Positions 40,507 through 41,175 of a stretch of DNA of 41,175 nucleotides are shown here, one piece after another. The position numbers were made by a program, and so were the translations under genes. A model generated the notes under the pieces. That model was not told the DNA's origin and made no database searches. It was given only the letters and a program-made list of their open reading frames with translations. How positions within the stretch are numbered: position 1 is the first letter of the stretch; the number at the start of each line of letters is the position of its first letter. The stretch comes from Bacillota bacterium (lineage in GTDB: Bacteria > Bacillota > Clostridia > Oscillospirales > Oscillospiraceae), in assembly GCA_022784505.1 (NCBI GenBank), contig JALFUQ010000021.1:1-41175 (forward strand). Direction: 5' to 3'.

Positions 40507-40516
40507 GCAGTCACTT

Positions 40517-40796
40517 GGGCGGATTCAGATAAGGATAAATCGCCCTGTAAAAAGCCTTTTTCCCCGATGCTGCGTTAAAGCTATAGGCCATATATGTCCA
40601 TTATGCCCGTCAAGCTTTGCCTTGCCACGAGAAAAAATCCGATTTTACATGGTGTGCAGCAGTTTTGACAGAGTTATTTTTCGTCAAGACAAAACAACAA
40701 ATCTCCGGCAATACTTTGTGTATTACCGGAGATTTTTGTGAAGTATGGGCGGAAAAGAGCCGGTCAAAACCGATTTATCCTTATCTGAATTCGCCC
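40517..40796. mobile_element. MITE-like non-autonomous element with 26-bp terminal inverted repeats
   Basis: GGGCGGATTCAGATAAGGATAAATCG (40517-40542) and CGATTTATCCTTATCTGAATTCGCCC (40771-40796): 25/26 inverted identity, 280 bp total, no transposase. Confidence 0.6.
40698..40737 (+). terminator. Strong hairpin/terminator inside the MITE-like element
   Basis: AAATCTCCGGCAATAC-TTTGT-GTATTACCGGAGATTTTTG; one mismatch in a 16-bp stem. Confidence 0.75.
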
Positions 40797-40812
40797 TTTT
40801 AGGGAGCTTTTT

Positions 40813-40965
40813 TCACAGCCTGTGGTCTCTTGGCATGGCGTTGTAGTGCTTCATCATGGGCTTTTCGAGTGCCTTGACGAGCTTGGTGTCGAGATTGAAC
40901 CAATACGCCGCCACGGTGAACAGAAACAGTGAAAATGCCGTTATCGATGCAGTTTTTAATATCAC
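40813..40965 (-). CDS. Putative small membrane protein (50 aa)
   Basis: GTG 40965: MILKTASITAFSLFLFTVAAYWFNLDTKLVKALEKPMMKHYNAMPRDHRL; codon choice resembles the other genes; no clear SD. Confidence 0.45.
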   Translation of the reverse strand: MILKTASITAFSLFLFTVAAYWFNLDTKLVKALEKPMMKHYNAMPRDHRL

Positions 40966-41002
40966 GGCATAGTCTTGTACAAAAAGCAAAGGAGCACAGA
41001 CT

Positions 41003-41175
41003 ATGGCATACGAGGAAAAGGAAAAGCTGAAGCCGGCGGTAAAGCCGCATTCGGTGAGCATGGACGACAGATGCAGGCTCAATGTCACGGGGGTCGATGA
41101 TGTTGAGAGCTTTGACGAGGCGACCATCGTCATGAACACCTCGCAGGGCACTCTTATCGTTCGGGGCCGCGGCCT
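41003..41175 (+). CDS. yabP: Sporulation protein YabP (3' truncated by window)
   Basis: SD AAGGAG then MAYEEKEKLKPAVKPHSVSMDDRCRLNVTGVDDVESFDEATIVMNTSQGTLIVRGRGL, YabP-type HSLSM...L.ITGV..VESFDE pattern. Confidence 0.85.
   Translation, partial: MAYEEKEKLKPAVKPHSVSMDDRCRLNVTGVDDVESFDEATIVMNTSQGTLIVRGRG

Follow-up and report, generated by a model that had tools for sequence, protein, structure and literature searches.

Several described systems resemble, in part, the element analysed here. Bacterial MITEs are likewise shorter than 500 bp, ORF-less, intergenic and dispersed, with TIRs (terminal inverted repeats) of about 26 bp, short direct repeats and a structured transcript (PMC10969869). 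Unlike MITEs in that account (PMC10969869), the present family has yielded no parental IS, its target is a hairpin loop rather than a sequence motif, and compensatory changes have kept its arms conserved from genus to genus. SPRITE, BOX and RUP of Streptococcus pneumoniae are also interspersed non-coding repeats near gene 3' ends; SPRITE resembles a terminator, and the pneumococcal elements insert into each other, a further likeness (PMC3049150). However, SPRITE consists of one terminator-like hairpin that has AAAA/TTTT ends and lacks a comparable empty site (PMC3049150), whereas our two-arm element, with GGGCGG..CCGCCC ends, splits pre-existing host terminators for which empty sites are at hand. 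REP/REPIN elements with their RAYT share with it the inverted pairs of hairpin units dispersed in intergenic DNA, but here the GTAG motif at the hairpin foot is missing (the flanks are AA or TT), several carriers have no Y1 gene and the target is the terminator loop. REPINs are also several times smaller. In behaviour the element is like a MITE and partly like a SPRITE or REPIN.

Two other systems are comparable in how they treat structure. Group IIC introns, ribozymes that come with a reverse transcriptase, recognise their target through the shape of a stem-loop in the DNA and insert 3' of it (PMC10190682). The present element contains no reverse transcriptase and is inserted in the loop. To our knowledge, these introns are the nearest mobile elements that choose a DNA stem-loop by shape, although chemistry and position differ. 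The double-hairpin elements and GC clusters of mitochondria are gene-less mobile hairpins of constrained structure and unknown mobiliser (PMC4478555, PMC2800124). They may be the nearest analogues as gene-less hairpins but are organellar and much smaller (GC42 has 42 nt). We know of no link between them and terminators. Our literature search, with subscription journals mostly outside it, found no described family with a terminator-loop target, and this family, widespread in gut Clostridia, is apparently undescribed.

The element lies at 40517..40796 of the window, a stretch of 41,175 nt that constitutes contig C6 of a 1.62-Mb MAG (the host). It consists of a TIR stem around two hairpin arms. 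An earlier note on this DNA had described it as MITE-like and free of a transposase ORF, and indeed no internal ORF of known family was found. The left TIR (A-side end, 40517..40542, plus strand, GGGCGGATTCAGATAAGGATAAATCG) and the right TIR (B-side end, 40771..40796, minus strand, CGATTTATCCTTATCTGAATTCGCCC) are 26-bp inverted copies with a single mismatch, exactly as noted before in sequence and position. Together with the adjoining CCC, the left TIR forms a 29-nt palindrome that occurs as solos elsewhere in the host genome. Arm A extends over approximately 40543..40651 (plus strand, CCTGTAAAA...TTTTACA) and arm B over approximately 40657..40771 (plus strand, CAGTTTTGAC...GGTCAAAACC); arm B is the most widespread module of the element and occurs alone too. 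At the tip of arm B there is a terminator-like hairpin of 16 pairs with a loop of 5 and T-rich sequence on both sides (minus strand), the strong internal hairpin already recognised at 40698-40737 and now placed at 40699..40735. The distances reported earlier also hold: the left end is 10 nt past the stop of ispF (confirmed as YgbB), and 16 nt separate the right end from the stop of a convergent ORF without Pfam match. The flanking dinucleotides are TT at 40515..40516 and TT at 40797..40798 (both plus strand), as noted earlier, a possible 2-bp target duplication.

Folded as ssDNA, the window element is about 10 SD more stable than dinucleotide shuffles of itself, and full-length copies in the same genome are 97% and 87% identical to it; the element is not a product of chance. 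Each copy folds into a TIR stem around the two separate arms. For a 55-pair structure in 29 copies from several genera, 98.0% of cells were paired, and none of 500 shuffles matched any measure of pairing or covariation. Two-sided changes were found in 23 of the 55 pairs; such compensatory changes indicate that the structure is conserved. The arm tips are terminator-like hairpins with stem sequences that vary by species while pairing is kept, and the TIRs vary by species yet stay inverted repeats. In several relatives, arm A is similar to arm B read as its reverse complement (z 3 to 8), a likeness that is unconvincing in the window copy (z 1.0); tentatively, the arms are probably old inverted paralogues.

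Strong covariation, and a position that is always at gene 3' ends, would also suit a resident structured RNA or long terminator that is inherited vertically and does not move. We rate this as the most improbable of the readings weighed here, since near-identical copies occur at unrelated loci within unrelated stems, and orthologous loci have plain terminators without the element; a resident locus is ruled out by these empty sites. Searches against Rfam gave only chance matches to miRNAs, far below threshold.

The earlier note had named dispersed copies with the same TIRs among the signs of a MITE, and several were found in the host and in relatives. Three full-length copies are present in the host genome, including that of the window. 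The second (97% identical by BLAST) is located at the end of contig C12 and shares exactly 141 bp with the end of C13, which joins these two contigs; the third (87% identical by BLAST) is in C58. There are also five 29-nt solos (C11, C38, C63, C82 and C89) and arm fragments at about ten places, counts that come from searches of the genome. Matches were obtained in 10 of 40 related genomes, the host itself among the 10, and relatives of the element in about 20 MAGs of rumen or gut Oscillospiraceae and other Clostridia. RGIG3479 (G017), from another genus of the same family, carries six complete copies with the TIR GGGCGGCGCAARTTAGGGATTATGCAG and many more that are truncated at contig ends. A pattern scan of 84,980 species returned 61 loci, all titled as MAGs of Oscillospiraceae, Ruminococcaceae, Clostridiales, Eubacteriales, Clostridia or Bacillota, and many of them from goat rumen and other gut sites. 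In the same scan viral contigs gave zero loci, and searches of phage, plasmid and viral collections gave no match. Every genome examined is a MAG. A single-copy sequence conserved with ispF, the alternative named in the earlier note, is excluded by the multicopy state and the orthologous empty sites.

Some related repeats were seen beside the complete copies. A 342-bp copy in RUG608 (L161) carries a nested insertion of about 65 extra bp close to the arm A tip. A second repeat with an arm A-like core is found in host contigs C8, C60, C70, C50 and C81 (L012, L014, L015, L016 and L019), in G005 (L047) and in G001 (L054); its ends differ in several copies (about AAGYTGACGGGAGCYGAAC), and it is apparently another element family with a shared module. 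Arm B without the usual TIRs follows other genes at L005, L007 (a pnp-like gene), L009, L010 (a sigma-factor gene) and L011, and at L007 it lies within the loop of a long GGCCGGAGCGAACCGA...TCGGTTCGCTCCGGCC stem. These TIR-less occurrences are possibly a monomeric form or decayed copies.

Employing 43 distinct complete copies extracted automatically, we scored the ungapped pairing between left and right flanks. The mean score was 10.65, compared to 4.93 for mismatched flank pairs, and the maximum mean in 200 permutations of the flank pairs was 5.56. Arms pairing as an intrinsic terminator (score of at least 9) enclosed 34 of the 43 copies, against 4% of mismatched pairs. Among the copies below this threshold, some pair with an offset (L041, for example) and others are unpaired (examples are L127, L156, L166, L170 and L181). 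In RGIG3555, two copies (L156 and L180) stand directly after the T-run of an intact terminator, not in the loop. Typical filled sites read AAAAGCGGATTTCTTC-TTT[element]TT-GAAGAAATCCGCTTTTTT in RGIG3479, AAAAAGACCGTGTC-CAA[element]AAA-GACACGGTCTTTTT in S13M_St_15, GAGACC-CCGTT[element]TTCA-GGTCTC at the joined C12/C13 site and GCTCCG ... CGGAG in C58. On at least one side of each of the 43 copies, an open frame has its 3' end no more than 138 nt away (median 29 nt). When 400 kb of RGIG3479 were sampled, terminator-like hairpin loops accounted for about 0.9% of the non-ORF DNA and for about 1.1% of the AA/TT steps in it, both rough figures from an aggressive ORF mask. To judge from these sequences, the family inserts almost exclusively into the loops of intrinsic terminators, and what is targeted is a structure, with the stem different every time and the loop nearly every time. 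An enzyme may recognise that hairpin structure. The element itself was confirmed as first described; the description had omitted this target.

Placement in terminators could also be produced by an ordinary MITE that arose by deletion from a DDE IS, has a 2-bp AA/TT target and inserts widely into 3'-intergenic DNA; insertions outside terminators would be lost through harm to gene expression, and the terminator copies would be what selection leaves. The TIRs, size, dispersed copies and flanking direct dinucleotides agree with such an origin, and a full-length parent could be missing where assemblies often break at copies. Nevertheless we consider it unlikely. Selection alone hardly accounts for the placement: insertion should be tolerated no less well at most other 3'-intergenic positions, yet about four-fifths of the copies (34/43) are precisely within paired terminator arms when loops represent about 1% of non-ORF DNA. 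Also, no ends without arms or solo were found.

Empty sites in sister species, proposed in the earlier note as a test, were found between aspS and comM and at five further loci. At all six, the orthologous site is an ordinary terminator with a short loop (3-7 nt). Between aspS and comM, the host reads AAAGGGCTGTGCAA[29-nt solo]TTGCACAGCCCTTT and the sister G004 reads AAAGGGTTGTAGAATTACAACCCTTTTT with no element; the corresponding place in G002, G003 and G005 is occupied by other plain terminators. The other five (L161, L136, L128, L149 and L179, in the RUG608/RGIG3527/RGIG3212/RGIG3291 group) are single-piece orthologous matches with loops GACA, ATC, GCAC, TTTGAT and ATTTC, and their stems match those of the filled sites. 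Since the orthologous empty sites are plain terminators, the element inserts into terminator loops. At the level of sequence, the multicopy state, the orthologous empty sites and a loop target with a different stem each time are established. At the racemase locus, where the C58 copy lies, the downstream context is not conserved in sisters, which makes this locus uninformative about empty sites.

The locus L179 of RUG608 provides a closer comparison. Two duplicates of the terminator on the same contig are empty, CCCGCTCC TGAAA GGAGCGGG (CTCC TGAAA GGAG), and the filled terminator reads TGAA[A..T]AAA, which has gained AA beyond the element relative to the duplicates. Tandem TTTCTAG-type repeats with duplicated terminators lie beside the filled terminator (positions 462-900 of L179). 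With the optional A/T pair assigned to the element, 36 of 43 copies have AA/AA or TT/TT as their flanking dinucleotides. The aspS solo is flanked by AA/TT without a direct repeat, showing that a 2-bp duplication is not universal, and the empty loops of sister species differ in sequence. A 2-bp target duplication is likely, mainly on the one clean case of L179. The remark in the earlier note that no target-site duplication was obvious (at most TT) was right as to the TT/TT of the window; it is amended by the prevalence of these dinucleotides among copies and the gain of AA at L179.

In G004 and G001, a hairpin terminator is found directly 3' of ispF, followed by another downstream gene, and the ispF terminator is intact in the closest sister. 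The host keeps the left arm of this terminator (40507..40514, plus strand, GCAGTCAC) at the place of GCAGATGA..TCATCTGC in G004. The right flank (40799..40812, plus strand, TTAGGGAGCTTTTTT-type), reading TTTTAGGGAGCTTTTTT, no longer pairs with it (pairing score 3) and is a decayed terminator arm or rearranged sequence. The host genes next to the element also differ from those of the sisters, with the Pfam-less ORF followed by the beginning of a second yabP. The 223 bp that close the window (40953-41175; yabP start and leader) are 86% identical to the yabP locus of C12 (L002), which would reflect a duplicated locus, sequence from a second strain or a chimeric end of the contig. The window copy probably entered the ispF terminator, with the old 3' arm since decayed or replaced by rearrangement; either the terminator would have decayed once the element had taken over, or the sequence would have been rearranged, or joined in assembly, at the element.

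The solos follow one plan. Each comprises one TIR and the last 6-11 nt of the other TIR (about 7 nt of the other end in the host), and four solos of the same plan as those of the host are present in RGIG3479. They lie inside terminator stems in 5 of 5 cases in the host and 3 of 4 in RGIG3479. In the host, a deletion can be accounted for by the short repeat TCGCCC, which is found both at the right end and where the left TIR borders the interior. Solos are probably footprints of internal deletion or excision, but may instead be a minimal mobile unit.

We looked for a source of transposition functions. No full-length IS sharing the TIRs, which the earlier note had named as confirming a MITE, was present in any sequence examined. 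A scan of the loci for arm-less TIR ends, as of a possible autonomous element, gave only arms, solos and chance matches; likewise no TIR ends without arms or solo were found in the host, the RGIG3479 matches or the loci read, all in incomplete MAGs with assemblies broken by repeats. The MITE reading stands in its TIRs, dispersed copies and empty sites, but IS parentage, which defines a strict MITE, is unproven.

Y1 enzymes act on ssDNA hairpins, and the element has two hairpin units in opposite orientation, as a REPIN-like element would if moved by a RAYT/Y1 (HUH) single-strand transposase into folded loops of the lagging strand. RAYT genes are present in the carriers G004, G017, G040 and G044; however, those seen are neither flanked by nor linked to element ends. 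Y1_Tnp is absent from four other carriers of copies (G002, G027, G041 and G042), and the only match in the host is a fragment of an IS200-like TnpA (L039, C79:491-736). These observations make a REPIN-like origin quite improbable, and a RAYT/Y1 mobiliser was rejected. At L193 of RGIG3555, several GTAGGGGCGATTATCAATCGCCC palindromes flank a RAYT-type Y1 transposase gene, in what looks like a classical REP/RAYT pair; this REP is GTAG-type and differs from the element ends. The IS110 recombinase (Transposase_20, PF02371) was found in none of 11 carrier genomes, with controls working, and mobilisation by IS110/IS1111 was rejected accordingly.

A retro-element would require that the structured RNA be copied into DNA and integrated by a reverse transcriptase that acts on stem-loop DNA. 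The precedent is that of group IIC introns, which recognise a DNA stem-loop (PMC10190682), and the arms are conserved as structures. We hold this to be very improbable: no Rfam match to any group II intron was obtained, insertion is within the loop and not beside the stem, and perfect TIRs are unexpected of an intron. A group II intron proper was rejected on the missing Rfam match and a length of 280 nt without ORF. Overall, membership in REPIN/RAYT, IS110-mobilised elements, group II introns or Rfam families fails or is unsupported, and known hairpin-oriented transposases are not supported as the mobiliser.

We favour, with a probability of roughly three in four, a family of non-coding mobile palindromes that measure about 277 bp, carry 26-bp TIRs and two arms, and transpose into intrinsic terminator loops. 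As the best explanation of this targeting, we infer a trans-acting recombinase, not encoded by the element, that would recognise both the folded element and a folded target hairpin, the latter as an extruded cruciform or as lagging-strand ssDNA. Joining at an AA/TT step would leave the 2-nt direct repeat of most copies. The terminator-like hairpins of the element may then replace the split host terminator, so that insertion would be nearly neutral and the family could accumulate. Possibly, though with the odds somewhat against it, the family belongs to a class of bacterial mobile DNA that is categorically new, in which gene-less palindromes with two arms are moved by a machinery that selects folded hairpin loops by structure, in practice those of intrinsic terminators, and time and again makes nested hairpins out of simple terminators.

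For those annotating these genomes, repeats at contig ends and unusually long "terminators" can be mobile DNA. Common Clostridia of rumen and gut hold many recent copies whose empty sites are known, so hairpin targeting can be tested in this family. Targeting by hairpin shape would require an enzyme able to read cruciforms or single-stranded hairpins, and such an enzyme would be of interest as an insertion tool. Targeting of terminators offers a safe place of insertion next to almost every operon, with genes undisrupted, and the family suggests that its transposition depends on a machinery reading the shape of DNA and not its sequence.
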